44,723 nt of DNA from Helicobacteraceae bacterium (GTDB lineage: Bacteria > Campylobacterota > Campylobacteria > Campylobacterales > SZUA-545): assembly GCA_031258155.1 (NCBI GenBank), contig JAIRNH010000026.1, positions 1 to 44,723 of the forward strand. Reading direction: 5' to 3'. The notes below the pieces were generated by a model. That model was not told where the DNA came from. It searched no databases and worked only from the letters and a program-made list of their open reading frames with translations. Position 1 is the first letter of the stretch, and each line of letters starts with the position of its first letter. Position numbers and translations under genes: made by a program. Positions 26,252 through 37,248 of the stretch are shown here, one piece after another.

Positions 26252-27031
26252 TTAGTTATTGAATCGCGCAAAATATTCGTCGATTTCCGAGCGCAGCTCA
26301 ATACCCGCTTTTTCAAAACATTCAAGCAATTCTCCATACGCGCCATGACCTCCAAGAAAATCCCAAAACTCTTCTGCGACTTTAAGTTCGTGTTCAATGT
26401 CAAGCATACCTGCTAAAGTCCAAAACTGATATGGCTGCGGTTCGTATGGATTATATGGAATGGCTATTAAAGTATTAACCTTTGCATCTTGATTTTTTGT
26501 GTAAGCAATACCTGCCCATTCAAGCAGAGTTTGTTTATACTTTTGAAAGTCGCCCTTGTTTGGTTTTGCCGTTTTTAAGTCGAAAAGATATTGTTCGCCT
26601 GATTTTGTTTCAAGAAACAAATCTATTTTTGCAGGTTTTAGCGTATTTTTTATGCCCGATAATGATTGTCTTAATATTTCCAATTCTTGTAATTTATCTG
26701 GCCTTGGATTGACTGTTAAACTGTTTATGATTGCTTGCACATTTTGCTGACAGTCATTAAAAATTTGATTTCCGACCGAATATTGCGTTTCAACTTTGAT
26801 AAAACGAGTTTTTGCCAATTCTGCCGCTACAGGTTCAAAAATTGACGAACCAAAAGTAGTGAATAACGACTGCATAAAAGAATACAAAGCCAATCTATCC
26901 TTTCCCAATAATCTAAAATGGAATGGCATAAAATTGTCTTTTGCTTCGTAATTTTGAAACTTATTACGCAAGCAATTTGCAATAACTTGTTGAATATGTG
27001 ATTTTTGTTGGTTAGTTAGCGACATAGTCAT
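26252..27031 (-). CDS. TdeIII-family type II restriction endonuclease
   Basis: A 259-residue protein that I recognise as the TdeIII restriction endonuclease family: MSLTNQQKSHIQQVIANCLR, FQNYEAKDNFMPFHFRLLGK and VAEEFWDFLGG are typical. A PD-(D/E)xK-like core is visible: KIDLFLETKSGEQ-YLFDLKTAKPN, with the Asp and the D-L-K pair as probable metal ligands and catalytic Lys. TdeIII itself cuts GGNCC; whether this enzyme shares that site is inference. The start lies inside the last codons of the upstream ATPase gene (20-base overlap; alternative ATG six bases downstream), so translation is coupled. The gene is AT-rich and lacks the GATCGC words common in the flanks. Confidence 0.88.
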   Translation of the reverse strand: MTMSLTNQQKSHIQQVIANCLRNKFQNYEAKDNFMPFHFRLLGKDRLALYSFMQSLFTTFGSSIFEPVAAELAKTRFIKVETQYSVGNQIFNDCQQNVQAIINSLTVNPRPDKLQELEILRQSLSGIKNTLKPAKIDLFLETKSGEQYLFDLKTAKPNKGDFQKYKQTLLEWAGIAYTKNQDAKVNTLIAIPYNPYEPQPYQFWTLAGMLDIEHELKVAEEFWDFLGGHGAYGELLECFEKAGIELRSEIDEYFARFNN

Positions 27032-29258
27032 TTTCTTCGATTATATCTTCTATTCCCATCATCATATTATAATGTCCTACATGATTGGTCAAGGTAAAAA
27101 TGTCTTTGAATACCTTTTTATATTTATCAATAGCATTCTCTTGTAATTCCAAATATACATCATCGCCAATACCAGCATTGTGTGAACCATCATTCGTCCA
27201 ATGAAACAAAGATTTGCATATAACTTGTTCTTCTTTTGTCTGAAATTTCTTTATTAAATCATCATCGCCATATTTCCCAAGTAATTTAAAATAATTCTCA
27301 ATAATTCTCCTCATTACATTTTGTATTGTTATGCTTGACTTTGCATCATTACTTTTTAATTCTTGCCACAACAAACCATAAGAAGATTGTATAGGATTAT
27401 CCATTTTAAATACTTGTATGTTTGAAATTTTGTCATCTTTTCTCAATATCCAAAAGTGGGTATCCTTACTTTGCTTTGTTCTACCATCAACAAAAGAAAC
27501 TTCTTTATGAAAATATATATTATGCGTTAAAATAATAAGTTGTTTAATGTTTCCTTTGTCTGCTTTAACTTTTTTGATAATCTCTTTTATTAGAGAACTT
27601 ACAACAAATAGCACATTACTATCTAAACTTGAAATGGGGTCATCAATAACTAAAATTCGTTCAATATTAACAGTTTCTTCGGAAATTCCGCCTTTTGCTA
27701 ACTGTAAATAATACAAAAAAGTAATAAATGTAATTTCTCCTTCACTTAATGTTTTTTCAGCTATTGTTCCATTATCCCTTTGGATTTGATAAAAACCATT
27801 TTCGGTGGCAGACACTATTTTAAAATTCAAAAATCCAAATGATTCTAACAAACGGTTTATTTCATCTATAGTTGGCTGTATACTCGTTACATTTTTACTT
27901 AATTCTTTAGTTTCTATATCTAATTTTTTATATTTTTTCTCCAACTCTTCTTGTTGTTCTTGCAAATTTGTAATACCTGTTTGCAAACCATTTTTACTTT
28001 TATTGAATTCTGTAATCTCGGTTTTAAACTCTTCAACAAGATATCTCCAAACGGATTCAATCAAATTATATTTTTCTGTTTGAAAATTAGCAACTATCTT
28101 ATTGTGTTTCTGTATTGCCTTATTTGCATTTTCAATTAACGCCGTAATTAATGAAAATTGTTCTTTCGTTACAATCAACTCAAAACTTCGACTCGGTTCT
28201 TTTTCTTTGCTGTTTAGATATTCCTTGTTTGTGGTGCATTGACTTGTTAAAGTTTTCAAATAGGCGGAAAACTTGTCAATCTCTAATTTTGTATTCTTTA
28301 TCACTCTTTGATTGGCTTCGATTGTGCTTAATTCATTAATAGTATTTTGTATCAACGAATCGTATTCGCTTTTCAGGTCTTTCAATAATTTCAAATCATT
28401 CAAATAAGTTTCATCAAAAAAACTTTCGATTTGCTTTCTAAAATCATCTGTAATTGTTTGTTGCTGACAAAACGGACAAATATTATCATCTTGTACATAA
28501 CTCTTTCCCTGATTTACCCAATCGTTAATATTCAGTTTGTTTATCAATTTTGCAATATCTACATCTACTTTACCAACAATGATTTTCTTCCAAATCTGAT
28601 TATTTTCAATTTCAACTATTCTATCAAATAAAGGTGTTGCTATTGCGGTAATTTCAATTTGTTGCTCGCCAAAAATTATTTTTGCTTTTTCTTTCAGTTC
28701 ATCAAGAATTGGTAAGGCAGTTTTATTATTTGCAAATTCCGACAATAATTTTTCCTTAAAACTTTCTTTTTGCAAAGTACCTCGAAATGCTTCTTTGAAA
28801 TCGTTTTCGTATTTCTTGTAAATCTTTGTCCAAGAAGTTTCTTTGAATTGATTTTCTATATTTTCTTTCTCTTTTGTTTGGGCTTCTATGGTAGTCTTTT
28901 TTTGAATACATTCCTTTTGAATATTTCCCAATTGCTGCGTTTTTTCTTCAATTTCTTTTATCTGTTCTGCAGTCGCCTCGCCAATAGTAAAAACGCCTGT
29001 AATTTTCCCATTTCCAAAATTTCTTTCTCTAAAATCTTTATTATAAACCAGAGTCTGTAATTCCAAATTGTTTTTCCATTTTACAGAACAATCAGTATTT
29101 ACAAATTTTTCATCATTGGGATTATGTAATAGATTTGATATGGTTGTTTTACCAGAAGCATTTGCTCCATAAATGAAATTTACTTTTTTAAAATCATCAA
29201 TTTGAATACCTACGGTATCGAAAGTAGCAACATTTTTTATTGTAATTGATTCTATCAT
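27012..29258 (-). CDS. RloC/PrrC-like ABC-type ATPase with zinc hook and anticodon-nuclease-like C-terminus
   Basis: A 748-residue SMC/ABC-type ATPase of the AAA_13 group. Seen: Walker A GANASGKTT (31-39), coiled coil (about 95-140), CPFC (261-264) like a zinc hook, more coiled coil (about 285-460), ABC signature LSEGE (504-508), Walker B ILVIDDP (535-541), D-loop SSLD, and switch His579 (LTHN). The C-terminal 110 residues contain R650-x3-E654-x31-H686. The anticodon nuclease PrrC uses Arg320, Glu324 and His356, the same spacing. RloC, a larger PrrC relative, also has a zinc hook and cuts tRNA after DNA damage. Inferred role: a translation-stopping tRNase kept silent by, or responsive to, the flanking restriction-modification enzymes. 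Its GGGAGGAG ribosome site lies across the methyltransferase stop. It may instead be an ATPase without nuclease activity. Confidence 0.8.
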   Translation of the reverse strand: MIESITIKNVATFDTVGIQIDDFKKVNFIYGANASGKTTISNLLHNPNDEKFVNTDCSVKWKNNLELQTLVYNKDFRERNFGNGKITGVFTIGEATAEQIKEIEEKTQQLGNIQKECIQKKTTIEAQTKEKENIENQFKETSWTKIYKKYENDFKEAFRGTLQKESFKEKLLSEFANNKTALPILDELKEKAKIIFGEQQIEITAIATPLFDRIVEIENNQIWKKIIVGKVDVDIAKLINKLNINDWVNQGKSYVQDDNICPFCQQQTITDDFRKQIESFFDETYLNDLKLLKDLKSEYDSLIQNTINELSTIEANQRVIKNTKLEIDKFSAYLKTLTSQCTTNKEYLNSKEKEPSRSFELIVTKEQFSLITALIENANKAIQKHNKIVANFQTEKYNLIESVWRYLVEEFKTEITEFNKSKNGLQTGITNLQEQQEELEKKYKKLDIETKELSKNVTSIQPTIDEINRLLESFGFLNFKIVSATENGFYQIQRDNGTIAEKTLSEGEITFITFLYYLQLAKGGISEETVNIERILVIDDPISSLDSNVLFVVSSLIKEIIKKVKADKGNIKQLIILTHNIYFHKEVSFVDGRTKQSKDTHFWILRKDDKISNIQVFKMDNPIQSSYGLLWQELKSNDAKSSITIQNVMRRIIENYFKLLGKYGDDDLIKKFQTKEEQVICKSLFHWTNDGSHNAGIGDDVYLELQENAIDKYKKVFKDIFTLTNHVGHYNMMMGIEDIIEENDYVAN

Positions 29259-31118: not shown

Positions 31119-32192
31119 CTAACGTCGTTCGCGCGTAATATCAAAAGCGCCGCGTATGCCGATCGTAATAGCGTATTCGGAGGGCGGATTTAATTGTAAG
31201 TCTTGGGCTTTCTGGGTTTGCGCCGCGCTATTAACGCTGTTTGTTACAAGCGGATCGTAATCGCCGTATCTGTATTCTCCATAATCAATATCCATACTAA
31301 CGATCGCGAGATTGCTTGGAACGCCTATTGAATAGCCGCTGCCTCCGACCGCCCTTTCAGCTTTCTCTAACAATTTAGAAAACAGTTTGCTCTCATGCTC
31401 GCTAATGACTTTTTGCCTCTTTTCTTCCGATACGCTGTAGCGAAGATCGTTGTTAACGTTCATCTTTAACTCTTGCGCTTTCGTAAATATCTTGCCTATA
31501 TGATCAAAATCCGAAACTTTTATCTTAATTTTATTAAATACAAAATATTTTTTAACCTCCTTATCTATACGTTTTTGCGGTTTTGTTTCGTATTTTTTTA
31601 TATCGACGTCGGCGGCGTTTATATCGTCAAGCCGCGCTCTTATTTTCTCATAGAGGTTTTGGACGTTTTGCGCGGATAACTCCTCGCTCGCCCCCGCGCC
31701 TTCGATTGTAAAGTAATAATTTTTATTATAGTCGTCCTTCCCAAGATTCTTAACGCCGTTTTGATCAAGCAGTTTTATCGCCTCGTAAAACGCTTCGGCT
31801 TTCATATTAAAAGTAACCGTCAGTTCGGTTTTATACGGCGTCTTAGAATCGATCGACGTTGTTATCGTTCTCTCGTAATTTTTATAATCGATTGTTTCTA
31901 TATCGCTCTCGCTAACTCCGAACGTTTTCATATATTTTTTCAGTTCGCCCATATTTTTGATATTCTGATTGGACGCGGCGTTGGGGGTGTTGCCTTCCGT
32001 TACATAGGTTACGCTAAACTCGGCGCCGTCGGGTTTAAGCGTAACGTTTTCGCTATAAGTTACGCTGATAGAGCCTACGGCAATCTGTTTTTCGCCGTAT
32101 TTTAACTCGTTGAAGCGTTGCGCCCATTCGCCGCCGTCTTGCGCCGCGATCGCAACCGCCGCCGCTATCGCCCATACAAACGCGCCTTTCAT
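31119..32192 (-). CDS. SIMPL-domain (DUF541) periplasmic protein
   Basis: A 357-residue exported protein starting at the ATG with AAGGAG five bases upstream (MKGAFVWAIAAAVAIAAQDG signal peptide). The mature part has the SIMPL/DUF541 arrangement: VGSISVTYSENVTLKPDGAEFSVTYV, TFGVSESDIETIDY and later AISVTI-like strands near the end (PPSEYAITIGIRGAFDI). The middle is rich in Lys and Asp with repeated ...KNYYFTIEGAG... and ...FVFNKIKIKV... strands. The function of SIMPL proteins in bacteria is not established. It is downstream of nifK beyond a strong hairpin, so probably a separate unit. Confidence 0.7.
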   Translation of the reverse strand: MKGAFVWAIAAAVAIAAQDGGEWAQRFNELKYGEKQIAVGSISVTYSENVTLKPDGAEFSVTYVTEGNTPNAASNQNIKNMGELKKYMKTFGVSESDIETIDYKNYERTITTSIDSKTPYKTELTVTFNMKAEAFYEAIKLLDQNGVKNLGKDDYNKNYYFTIEGAGASEELSAQNVQNLYEKIRARLDDINAADVDIKKYETKPQKRIDKEVKKYFVFNKIKIKVSDFDHIGKIFTKAQELKMNVNNDLRYSVSEEKRQKVISEHESKLFSKLLEKAERAVGGSGYSIGVPSNLAIVSMDIDYGEYRYGDYDPLVTNSVNSAAQTQKAQDLQLNPPSEYAITIGIRGAFDITRERR

Positions 32193-32238
32193 ATCCGCTC
32201 CTTTTAGCAAAATCGTCGAGATTATAGCTCTTGACGAC

Positions 32239-32267
32239 TTTCAAACGGGGAACTACCCCGTTTGAAA
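32239..32267 (-). terminator. Perfect 12-bp hairpin after nifK
   Basis: TTTCAAACGGGG (32239-32250), a five-base loop, then CCCCGTTTGAAA (32256-32267). It begins seven bases beyond the nifK stop. No T-run follows on the minus strand, so it may act as an mRNA-stabilising end structure rather than as a classical Rho-independent terminator. Confidence 0.7.
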
Positions 32268-32281
32268 CGCAATCTAGCGGA
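32261..32281 (+). repeat. 21-base repeat, copy 2 (nifK 3' end)
   Basis: Matches 30953-30973 with one mismatch. It includes the nifK stop codon and the start of the right arm of the nifK hairpin. Confidence 0.45.
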
Positions 32282-33800
32282 CCAGATCGTAAGAGAAGTC
32301 GGTTTTGGCGATCTCTTTTGTTTGCGAGTCGATCGTGTCTAATATCTTATTGACGATCCAATTGAGCAGATTTAATCCGCCTTTGTAGCCGACAATGCTG
32401 TATCGGTGCAAGTGGTGGCGATCGAAGATCGGAAAACCGATCCTAATCAACGGAACGCCCGTATCGCGTTCAAGTTCCTTGCCGTAGCTGTTGCCGATAA
32501 GGTAATCTACGGGTTCGGTAAAGAGCAGACTGCGCAAATGCCACAGGTCTTTGCCCGCCCAAACGCGCGAGCTATCTTTAGCGGGCGATCGATCCAAAAC
32601 GGCGCGCGCGGCTTCCGCCCACCCTTCTGGCGCGTTGTTGCACAACAGATGCGTAACCTCGCCGCCCATCTCTATAACGAACGCCGCCAATCCAAGCGCG
32701 AAATCGGGATCGCCGTAGATCGCGAACTTTTTGTCGTGAACGTAGGAGTAGCTATCCTGCATCGCATCGACGAGCCGCGCGCGATCGCGCTTGATCGATT
32801 CGGGAACGTCCTTGCCCGAAAACTCTTTCAAGAACATAACAAGCTCGTCGGAGCCGCTAAGCCCGATCGGTCGCGCCTCGAAGGTCTGTTGCTTGAACTT
32901 ATTTTTACAGATTTTCAGCGTTTTTGGCGTGGTGAAGGGTTGCATGGTAACGATCGCTTTGGCGTTGCAAGCGCCCTTTATCTCTTCGATCGGCGTGCCG
33001 CCCGCGAACATCTTATATTCGCCCGCGCCGGTATTCCACTGCTCGCCGTGATCGGGAATCACCACCGCGTCTATGCCAAACGCTTCGGCAAGCTCTCTTT
33101 CCTCGTCGATACCGCCAAGATAGGTTTCAAAACCCGGGACGATATTAAGCCGCTCTTTTTTATCTTTGGAGATCGTTTTGCAAAGCTGCTTGAGCGTTTC
33201 GGAGAGCATATTGTCGTAGCCCGTTAAATGACTGCCGACAAAGCTAGGCGTATGCGCGAAAACCACCGGATAATCTTCGGGCAAATAACCTTCCGTTTTC
33301 GCCCCGTCCACAAAGGCGTTAAGATCGTCGCCGATCACCTCCGCCATGCAGGTCGTGGAAACGGCGATCATCTCGGGCTCGTAAAGCGCTTTGCAGTTTT
33401 GCAAGCCCTGCTTCATATTGTTAATGCCGCCGAACACAGCCGCGTCCTCCGTCATCGAGTCGCTAACGCACGGCGTCGGCTCTTTGAAGTGGCGGGTAAA
33501 ATAGGTGCGGAAATAGGCGACGCAACCATGACTTCCATGCACATACGGCATCGTGTTTTCAAAGCCTAGCGCCACCATAACCGCGCCGAGCGGCTGGCAG
33601 GCTTTAGCTTGGTTTATAGTGATCGCTTCGCGTTTGAAGTTCAGATCGCAATACTCTTTGCTCTTCGTCCATTCGGCGATCTCTTTGACCTTTTGAACCT
33701 CTGGCATATCCTCGAAGGCTTTTTTGTTTTTGAACGTCTCGTCGTATTCGGGTTGCAAAAACAGGTCTTTGCCAATTACTATTTTTTGCGGATTTTGCAT
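32274..33800 (-). CDS. nifK: Nitrogenase MoFe protein beta chain
   Basis: Beta subunit of the molybdenum-iron protein, 508 residues. The P-cluster cysteines Cys68 (KACQPLGAVM), Cys93 (HGSHGCVAYFR) and Cys151 (STTCMAEVIGDD) match A. vinelandii positions 70, 95 and 153. Ser/Phe-rich FRTYFTRHFKEP and AVFGGINNMKQGL are conserved. Its Mo-type length and motifs argue against a vanadium or iron-only enzyme. GGAGAAAGAG precedes the ATG. It follows nifD after 59 bases and ends the operon; no nifE, nifN, nifB or nifX lies in the window. Confidence 0.97.
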   Translation of the reverse strand: MQNPQKIVIGKDLFLQPEYDETFKNKKAFEDMPEVQKVKEIAEWTKSKEYCDLNFKREAITINQAKACQPLGAVMVALGFENTMPYVHGSHGCVAYFRTYFTRHFKEPTPCVSDSMTEDAAVFGGINNMKQGLQNCKALYEPEMIAVSTTCMAEVIGDDLNAFVDGAKTEGYLPEDYPVVFAHTPSFVGSHLTGYDNMLSETLKQLCKTISKDKKERLNIVPGFETYLGGIDEERELAEAFGIDAVVIPDHGEQWNTGAGEYKMFAGGTPIEEIKGACNAKAIVTMQPFTTPKTLKICKNKFKQQTFEARPIGLSGSDELVMFLKEFSGKDVPESIKRDRARLVDAMQDSYSYVHDKKFAIYGDPDFALGLAAFVIEMGGEVTHLLCNNAPEGWAEAARAVLDRSPAKDSSRVWAGKDLWHLRSLLFTEPVDYLIGNSYGKELERDTGVPLIRIGFPIFDRHHLHRYSIVGYKGGLNLLNWIVNKILDTIDSQTKEIAKTDFSYDLVR

Positions 33801-33859
33801 TTTCTCTTTCTCCTCTCAACTCATCTGTTTATTGAGGCTATTAACCCCGCGCCGCCAAA

Positions 33860-35311
33860 CTAGGCGGCGTCCCATGGCGCTTTGTTGTGTCCCCAAACGG
33901 GGCTGTTAATCGCCATATCCATATCGCGCGCGAAGATCGCAAAACCGTCAAAACCGTGATAGGGTCCCGAATAATCCCAACTGTGCATCTGCCTAAACGG
34001 CAACCCCATCTTCTGGAAGGTGTATTTTTCCTTCACGCCCGCCGCGACAATGTCCGGCTTAATCCGTTTGCAAAAGGCTTCAAGCTCGTATTCGTTGGCG
34101 TCGTCGTAGATCACGGTCGATCGCTGGATTTCATGCGTCGTGCGGCTGTAGTCGTCGTTGTGCGCGAATTCGTAGCCCGTGCCGATGATCTCCATACCTA
34201 AATCCTCGTAAGCGCCGATTACGTGGCGCGGACGCAAACCGCCGACATAGAGCATCACCTTTTTGCCTTCTAAACGCGGCTTGTATTTATCTAGCACGGC
34301 GTCCATTACGGGTTTATATTTGGCGATCACCTTTTCGGCGTTGTCCTGAACGCCCTGATCGAATTGGCTCGCGATCTTGCGAAGCGATTCGTAGGTTTTG
34401 CTGGGACCGAAGAAGTTATACTCTATCCAAGGGATATTAAACTCCTGCTCCATATGACGGCTGACGTAGTTCATCGATCGATAACAGTGAAGCAGGTTGA
34501 GCTTGGCTTTCGGTCCGTTGCGCAATTCGTTTAACGTCGCGTCGCCCGACCACTGCGCAATCACGCGCAAACCCATCTCCTCGAGCAAAATGCGGCTCGC
34601 CCAAGCGTCGCCGCCGATATTGTAATCGCCGATAATCGCTACGTCGTATGGCGTGGAGCCTACGTCGGAGCCTTTAGACGTAAATACGTGATCGCGGATC
34701 GCGTCGTTCGCGATATGGTGTCCTAACGACTGACTAACGCCGCGAAACCCTTCGCAACTGACGGGAATAACGGGCTTGTTGATTAACGCCGTAGTTTTTT
34801 TCGCCGTCGCTTGAATATCGTCTCCGATCAGACCGATCGGGCATTCGGATTGAACCGACACGCCTTTGACGAGCGGAAATAGCTCGTTGATCTCCTCGAT
34901 CGCTTTGGTCAGTTTCTTATCCCCGCCGAAAACGATGTCGCGCTCTTGAAAATCGGTGGTGAAATTCATCGTAACGAACGTATCCACGCCCGTAGAGCCG
35001 ATATAGTAGTTGCGCCGCCCCGATCTGGAGTATTGGCTACAACCTACGGGACCGTGGCTGATATGAACCATATCCTTCACCGGACCCCACACGACGCCCT
35101 TCGATCCCGCGTAAGCGCAACCGCGCTGGCTCATTACGCCCGGAACCGTTTTCTTGTTCGATTGAACGCCGCCGCACGTTTTTTGACTCTCGTCCGCGGG
35201 CAAACCTACGCCCAAATGTTTGGCGCGATCTTTCTGCGCTTTTTCGGGATACTTTTTTAGTATATCCTCTAAGGCGCTTTTTTGAATACTCTCTAGGCTC
35301 TCTGGACCCAT
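33860..35311 (-). CDS. nifD: Nitrogenase MoFe protein alpha chain
   Basis: Alpha subunit carrying FeMo-cofactor, 483 residues from the ATG with AAGGAAGG eight bases upstream; a start ten codons earlier has no ribosome site. P-cluster ligands Cys65 (QRGCAYAG), Cys91 ([10 protein letters not shown]) and Cys157 ([10 protein letters not shown]) are present, as are the cofactor ligands Cys276 ([14 protein letters not shown]) and His443 ([13 protein letters not shown]). These correspond closely to A. vinelandii Cys275 and His442. All catalytic residues appear intact. Confidence 0.97.
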
Positions 35312-35361
35312 CTGTCTTACCTTCCTTTTGAGACTATGCAATCGGTTTTGTCGATTGATCG

Positions 35362-35739
35362 TTAGTTAAAAACCACCTCTACGTTGATCGGCTCCATGTC
35401 TTGAAACTTCTTTGCGATCTCAAAACATTCCGCGTCCTTGTCAAGCTCCAAACTAAGCTCGGCGATCTGGTATTTGTTGGTGAAATACATATACTTCAAA
35501 CCGTCCTCTTTGGCGGTCTCCTGATTAAGGTAGAAGTGCGTCAACGCCTTAGCGAGAAAAGTGTCGTTTTTCGTAAGCGTCTTGTAAAGCTCCGTTTTGG
35601 TCGATTTGGTCGAGCCTTGATGGAGCTTGATCTCCTTAACCTTGCTCATATCGACGGCTTTATCGACCAGCGCCGCCACCTCGCTCGATGGAATAATGTT
35701 GCCGCGATCGGCGGGAAAATGCATGCCAAGAATAAACAT
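35362..35739 (-). CDS. Small unknown protein encoded between nifH and nifD
   Basis: A 125-residue soluble protein with a strong AAGGAG, 12 bases after the nifH stop and about 50 bases before nifD, so surely part of the nif operon. I do not recognise the family. It has no Cys pairs, no membrane helix and no PII signature (NifI1/NifI2, which occupy this place in archaea and some anaerobes). It is not VnfG/AnfG, which lies between D and K. Visible features: a hydrophobic start ([14 protein letters not shown]), [20 protein letters not shown], a long helix-rich middle and an acidic end. It could assist nitrogenase assembly, Fe-protein regulation or protection. Codon use is like its neighbours. Confidence 0.8.
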
Positions 35740-35751
35740 GTTCGCTCCTTT

Positions 35752-36654
<903 letters not shown>

Positions 36655-37248
36655 CTAAGCTCCTTGTCTTAATTTATGGATCAGCCGCGTCGCTTTTCCA
36701 GACAGATATTTTGCCCCGCTAATGGACATATGGGCGCCTTTTTTTTAATCATTACTCTATATTTTTACAAAATTCGCGTATTTTCTCGCGCCGCTACCTT
36801 TAGGTTTTAGATCAACTTGCGCCGATAGGCGCATTTTGTGCGATCGCTAACGGGCTATCGGGCGGAGATGGGGGGGGTCGCGCCGTTTTTAGCCGCAAAT
36901 TACTAGATTGCGGCGGTTTTGCGATCTCTTGGCGCCAATAGATTCGGGCGGTTTTATTTTATACGTTTATATTAATGTTTATCATTAGCGATCGCTCTCG
37001 CCGTAAGATGAAAATCACAATATATGAACGCGGCGCGCGCGTTAAAGCTATCGATCTATCGCTTATCAACGTCCGTTTTCGCAAAAGCGTTAAGCTAAAA
37101 CGATTATTAACGGCGGGTTATACGCGCAATTTTATAGAAACTTTTTTAAGCGCGTAATGTGCCCAAGAGAATAAACTATTTACTTCGCGATCGCGGCGTT
37201 TGCGATAGCGAGCCAAAGCGCCAAAAAGCTTCTCGCAAACTTAACGCT
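36655..37248. other. 594-base gap upstream of nifH, with G8 tract
   Basis: Probable promoter region of the nif operon, AT-rich at 36741-36780. It contains a run of eight G (36870-36877) and three GCGATCGC octamers (36840, 36988, 37187). A 60-codon plus-strand frame at 36975-37157 lacks a convincing ribosome site and I do not call it. No canonical sigma-54 promoter is seen. Confidence 0.4.

Follow-up and report, generated by a model that had tools for sequence, protein, structure and literature searches.

We asked what a large ATPase gene may be doing between the methyltransferase (M) and the endonuclease (R) of a simple type II restriction-modification (R-M) system. The locus belongs to a Helicobacteraceae bacterium and lies in what we call the window, the whole stretch of 44,723 nucleotides that was analysed (contig JAIRNH010000026.1). 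When restriction is disabled, the cell can be killed or stalled by guards, which have been described both for type I systems (PrrC) and for anti-restriction proteins (PARIS). In our reading, the middle gene of this TdeIII operon probably encodes an anticodon nuclease of the RloC type, gated by ATP and bearing a zinc hook, that has a general second-line role behind type II restriction; from the comparisons reported below we infer its activity as a nuclease, its tRNA target and whatever coupling it may have to R-M.

An RloC-type gene lies between M and R of a TdeIII operon

The three genes follow each other closely (Table 1), M being directly upstream of the RloC-type gene with a gap of 4 bp and R overlapping the end of the latter by 20 bp. 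R is a TdeIII-family nuclease beside a methyltransferase of its usual partner family, which identifies the pair as a type II TdeIII R-M system. The initial annotation had given the correct extent of the middle gene, as a frame of 748 aa fills the full span, but this frame is read on the minus strand only, the plus strand being full of stops.

Table 1. Position of the three genes of the operon and of the main elements of the RloC-type protein in the window.
Feature	Position	Strand	Evidence
Type II DNA methyltransferase (M gene), 534 aa	29263..30867	-	PF01555 E=2.2e-15; PADLOC MTase_II E=3.5e-247
RloC-type ABC ATPase with C-terminal nuclease-like domain, 748 aa	27012..29258	-	ORF translation, PF13166, PADLOC
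TdeIII-family restriction endonuclease (R gene), 259 aa	26252..27031	-	PF09520 E=4e-77
Walker A GANASGKT, residues 31-38	29145..29168	-	conserved in homologue alignment
CPFC zinc-hook-like CxxC, residues 261-264, between predicted helical arms	28467..28478	-	alignment and model
C-terminal nuclease-like region, residues 612-748, mostly helical	27015..27425	-	models; aligned to PrrC C-domain
R650, proposed catalytic Arg	27309..27311	-	87/87 homologues; 21/21 viral set; pairs with PrrC Arg
E654, proposed catalytic Glu	27297..27299	-	87/87 homologues; 21/21 viral set; pairs with PrrC Glu
S692-H693, proposed catalytic His and preceding Ser	27180..27185	-	87/87; pairs with PrrC Ser-His
H686, His of the initial annotation, not conserved	27201..27203	-	His 2/87, Ser 63/87; viral set 4/21

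Two congeners allow a close comparison of the junction. In G005, M and R overlap directly by 14 bp with nothing between them; its M frame ends ...TATGGCGCTGACTAA over the start of R, and the RloC-type frame of the window ends in the corresponding ...TATGTCGCTAACTAA over the start of R. The RloC-type gene therefore stops where M stops in the empty locus, which suggests, as far as can be read from the two sequences, that translational coupling is preserved in the window operon. In G004, both the nif block and M align collinearly with those of the window (82% and 81% DNA identity), and the gene after M, near nifK, is AriA-like, whereas it is RloC-type in the window. M of the window is closer to that of G004 (83% identity) than to that of G005 (71%), while R of the window is closer to that of G005 (79%) than to that of G004 (60%), the R genes of G004 and G006 sharing 82%. 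These discordant identities suggest a history such as recombination in or near the junction would give.

The nif genes of the window (nifK, nifD and nifH by sequence) are found at 32265-36747, just upstream of the R-M operon. Between M and nifK, an ORF of 363 aa (31119-32210) is an extra gene of the window, since M directly adjoins nifK in G004.

The protein combines a Rad50-like head, a CxxC hook and a C-terminal nuclease-like region

The AAA_13 family (PF13166, E=1.2e-180) and the top PADLOC model, PDC-S06 (E=9.8e-268), both cover the whole protein, and the PADLOC model of PrrC matches residues 441-720 (E=3.6e-13). Homologues from relatives and from the genome collection were aligned as 87 full-length sequences, query included, and a viral-contig set was made of 20 homologues plus the query. 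In the 87 sequences G31, G36 and K37 of Walker A are invariant and T38 is either T or S; an LSEGE signature was also found in the protein. In the viral-contig set too, the ATPase residues, like S692, are kept in all or almost all sequences. Both cysteines of the hook, C261 and C264, are present in every homologue (87/87) and in the entire viral-contig set (21/21).

In the full-length AlphaFold2 model (mean pLDDT 83, pTM 0.54), long helices lie around the hook (residues 97-158, 283-318, 327-353, 365-390, 392-410 and 412-457), and Foldseek matches the head of the model to Rad50 (E=1e-7). Searching by sequence for solved relatives found none. The C-terminal domain is modelled less well, at a pLDDT of 73.5, with residues 689-706, including the loop of H693, below 50. 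Foldseek of this weak model against the PDB gave no significant match, HEPN included (best E=1.6). As a consequence, the putative membership of the protein in HEPN, to which PrrC and RloC have been assigned, is taken from the literature (PMC3710099). The canonical HEPN motif R-x4-6-H is absent from its expected place in the family: an R-x6-H would have its His at residue 686, which is His in the window protein, Ser in most homologues and Arg in 5 of the 87. We also noticed H729 and a run of methionines (MMM) within residues 729-734 (27057-27074), invariant or nearly so in the RloC-type family and missing from the five PrrC sequences compared.

The conserved triad ends at H693

The initial annotation had proposed a triad R650-E654-H686 with exactly the spacing of PrrC and had mentioned H693 as an alternative partner of the first two residues. 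All four residues, as well as the CPFC hook, are at the positions it gave, and it had named free variation in an alignment as what would speak against the triad. Such variation is seen for H686, which is His in 2 of the 87 sequences, and not for R650 or E654, which are invariant. H693, on the contrary, is present in all 87, always after a Ser, and in 20 of the 21 sequences of the viral set. The gap between the Glu and this His is 34-39 residues across the RloC-type family, and a His exactly at E+32 was found in 2 of the 87 homologues.

The spacing was not diagnostic either. PrrC was compared through five proteins of relatives, whose triads all end in Ser-His and whose Glu-to-His gaps are x31, x32, x34, x34 and x35; x31 is therefore not fixed even within PrrC. 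R650-x3-E654-x31-H686 is the sole pattern of its kind in the protein, and in composition-preserving shuffles R-x3-E-x31-H arose in 0.4% of the C-termini and 1.45% of the complete proteins, and a pattern with the Glu-His spacing relaxed to 20-45 residues in 9.8%. Given a genuine R-x3-E pair, a His at one named position would be expected about 1 time in 20 from the frequency of His, and exact spacing is thus weak evidence.

Aligning the profile of the RloC-type family with that of PrrC by hhalign gave a probability of 96.5% (E=1e-9) over a stretch running from the ABC signature and Walker B through the triad, pairing R650 with the Arg, E654 with the Glu and S692-H693 with the Ser-His of PrrC. 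The C-terminal profile alone gave the same pairing with a probability of just 7%, so that confidence in the pairing comes from the anchoring by the ATPase. As R650, E654 and Ser692-His693 are invariant and the Ser-His of PrrC falls on S692-H693, the triad read from these alignments is R650-E654-H693, i.e. R-x3-E-x38-(S)H. A PrrC-spaced site particular to the window protein, made of R650, E654 and H686, is hardly tenable: H686 does stand exactly at E+32, but most homologues have Ser at this position and the invariant His aligned with the Ser-His of PrrC is H693. Conservation (2/87; 4/21 in the viral set) and the PrrC profile alignment rule out H686 as the catalytic His, and its match to the PrrC spacing is a coincidence. 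The residue to mutate is consequently H693 and not H686.

This triad, together with the other features, corresponds to what has been published for RloC, that is an ABC ATPase split by an insert with a CxxC hook, 658-897 aa in size, with the signature R-x3-E-x36-52-H in which a Ser often precedes the His (PMC2610378). The window protein has x38, Ser-His, CxxC and 748 aa; its ABC ATPase with a coiled-coil insert and hook is recognised from AAA_13, a CPFC motif whose cysteines are kept in 87/87, the long helices and the Rad50-like head. In Geobacillus RloC, mutation of any residue of the triad abolished activity (PMC2610378). The reading of the protein as a probable RloC-like nuclease, already made in the initial annotation, is therefore retained from the combination of AAA_13, the PrrC model (E 4e-13), the invariant CxxC and R-E-H triad and the Rad50-like head.

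The M-R junction holds different genes in relatives

The census covered 397 genomes of one phylum, in which TdeIII was found in 40; 38 loci were read besides that of the window, with ORFs called mechanically and longest-ORF filtering. An M of the same family and TdeIII stand in the same order at 34 loci, the window counted (33 further ones), and the junction between them is empty in 21/34 and occupied in 13/34. The occupants are the RloC-type gene in the window, an AriA/OLD-like gene (G004), a fused AriAB, i.e. PARIS (G006), GmrSD (G180), AIPR/AbiU (G076, G212, G304 and G190), an N6-methylase with HSDR_N (G404), a BsaWI nuclease with a methylase (G119, G297 and G272) and a DpnII/BanI-like nuclease with a methylase (G178). 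In this phylum, the M-R junction of TdeIII pairs is thus a slot whose content differs between relatives and is mostly antiviral. G404 is a weaker case because its inserted genes are set off by wide gaps, of 340 and 271 bp; in G178 both M and R seem to be truncated, and M is split into two ORFs in G190.

Other loci depart from the usual arrangement. In G004, the region of the R start (L142, near 2190-2330) contains an in-frame stop, with M and the AriA-like gene open, and the restriction function of this R may be lost. In G122 (L175:1129-2868), a gene for a DUF7897 protein stands 3 bp before TdeIII in place of the usual methyltransferase, and on an IMG/VR contig (L183:5198-6831) two TdeIII-family ORFs stand in tandem after M.

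TdeIII together with an RloC-type gene in this order was found neither among the other genome homologues, some of them read with 1.5 kb of flank, nor at the dozen viral loci listed, and the three-gene order has therefore been seen once. Plasmids gave one distant Vibrio match for TdeIII and partial matches only for M. Among open-licence papers, we found none on TdeIII and recognised none on such a type II M-R slot.

RloC-type homologues are often, and not always, linked to R-M genes

We also looked at the immediate same-strand neighbours of the homologues, 66 of them at 51 loci. R-M genes are frequent among them, with type I specificity (5), ResIII (5) and Eco57I-type (5) proteins, as well as N6/N4 methylases, MmeI, type ISP and AlwI; homologues sit beside type I S, M and R genes and type III res genes. 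The neighbours also include SbcD-like phosphoesterases, DUF2130, nSTAND3 and transporters, and linkage to R-M is thus common without being a rule. In many close relatives none of the adjoining genes is recognised as R-M, and the same holds for several copies on viral contigs, where the probes were TdeIII, M and the slot proteins only; coupling to R-M is therefore not obligatory. At three loci (L020:4666-5802, L033:9271-10518 and L034:9274-10521), an SbcD-like phosphoesterase gene lies downstream of the RloC-type homologue with an overlap of 4 bp, which suggests a pair resembling SbcCD in which the C-terminus is nuclease-like.

A proposed second line behind type II restriction and its alternatives

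By the mechanism that we propose, the Rad50-like head and the hook would keep the C-terminal nuclease silent. Failure of restriction, or DNA damage related to phages, would lead to a rearrangement of the head, driven by DNA and ATP, that frees the nuclease; once freed, it would cut host tRNA, perhaps excising the wobble base, and translation and phage growth would stop. The RloC-type protein would in this way form a second line behind the restriction enzyme, as PrrC does behind the type I system.

The position of the gene can also be explained by an independent defence passenger, that is an RloC-type nuclease with a trigger of its own (such as DNA ends) for which the M-R junction offers no more than a transcribed site where landing is safe, with no functional link to TdeIII. 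We consider this rather unlikely, given that the inserted genes lie exactly at the junction of M and R, leaving short gaps or overlaps, and that the AriAB, AriA-like, GmrSD and RloC-like occupants are of the kinds described as acting once restriction has been evaded. A passenger would nevertheless account equally well for the mixed contents of the slot, which include nested R-M pairs, which are not guards, and an N6-methylase, and it agrees with the close relatives, on viral contigs too, that lack recognised R-M neighbours. Moreover, RloC genes are reported to be seldom linked to R-M, and then to type I or III systems (PMC2610378), and the RloC of A. baylyi to respond to DNA breaks (PMC2610378, PMC12707154). 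A different question is the substrate. In triad spacing and in its Ser-His the protein agrees with RloC, a demonstrated tRNase (PMC2610378), and we find it improbable that the C-terminal domain acts as a nuclease on other RNA (mRNA, rRNA or phage RNA) instead of the tRNA anticodon, even if the shared evidence consists of the triad only and the invariant H729 and conserved MMM are absent from the five PrrCs.

The second-line reading of the RloC-type protein, which we prefer, could be extended to the whole set of loci. The TdeIII M-R junction would then be, in this phylum, a dedicated exchange slot in which unrelated tRNA-cutting guards (RloC-type in the window, AriAB in a congener) are swapped, each of them silenced by the resident type II enzymes and monitoring them, so that type II restriction would have its counterpart of the PrrC arrangement; we regard this extension as possible but doubtful. 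If a type II slot holds RloC-type, AriAB, GmrSD and AbiU-like genes, the guarding of simple type II enzymes becomes testable, and one genus offers matched loci that are empty, RloC-type and AriAB.

Comparison with known systems

The nearest label is PDC-S06 of PADLOC, a candidate single-gene defence with AAA_13 that resembles the window protein over its whole length; it is a candidate label without a mechanism, and its definition does not include an R-M slot. PrrC, the guard of the type I EcoprrI system, is homologous over the ABC core and the triad and also sits in a restriction operon. It differs by its size (about 340-420 aa without a hook insert, against 748 aa with the CPFC insert), by its Glu-to-His gap (x31-x35 in five proteins, against x38) and by its partners, which are type I hsd genes where the window has a type II methyltransferase and the TdeIII nuclease. 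PARIS has been described as a guard of restriction that cuts tRNA-Lys, the guard concept covering both PrrC and PARIS (PMC12707154).

The RloC proteins of Geobacillus kaustophilus and Acinetobacter baylyi, compared by their published description, share with the window protein the hook-split ABC ATPase, the triad and the size. Their reported linkage, if any, is to type I or III systems, whereas the window gene occupies the M-R junction of TdeIII, which is a type II system. The type I hsd loci of C. jejuni carry variable extra rlo genes, rloC among them (PMC2610378), and resemble the present locus in having variable genes, including rloC, inside a restriction locus; the C. jejuni locus is of type I, whereas ours is of type II with its own set of interchangeable genes. 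With the rlo genes of C. jejuni and the PrrC and PARIS guards as precedents, the protein adds a member to a known kind, and the variation lies in its setting, a type II slot whose genes are exchangeable and for the most part antiviral.
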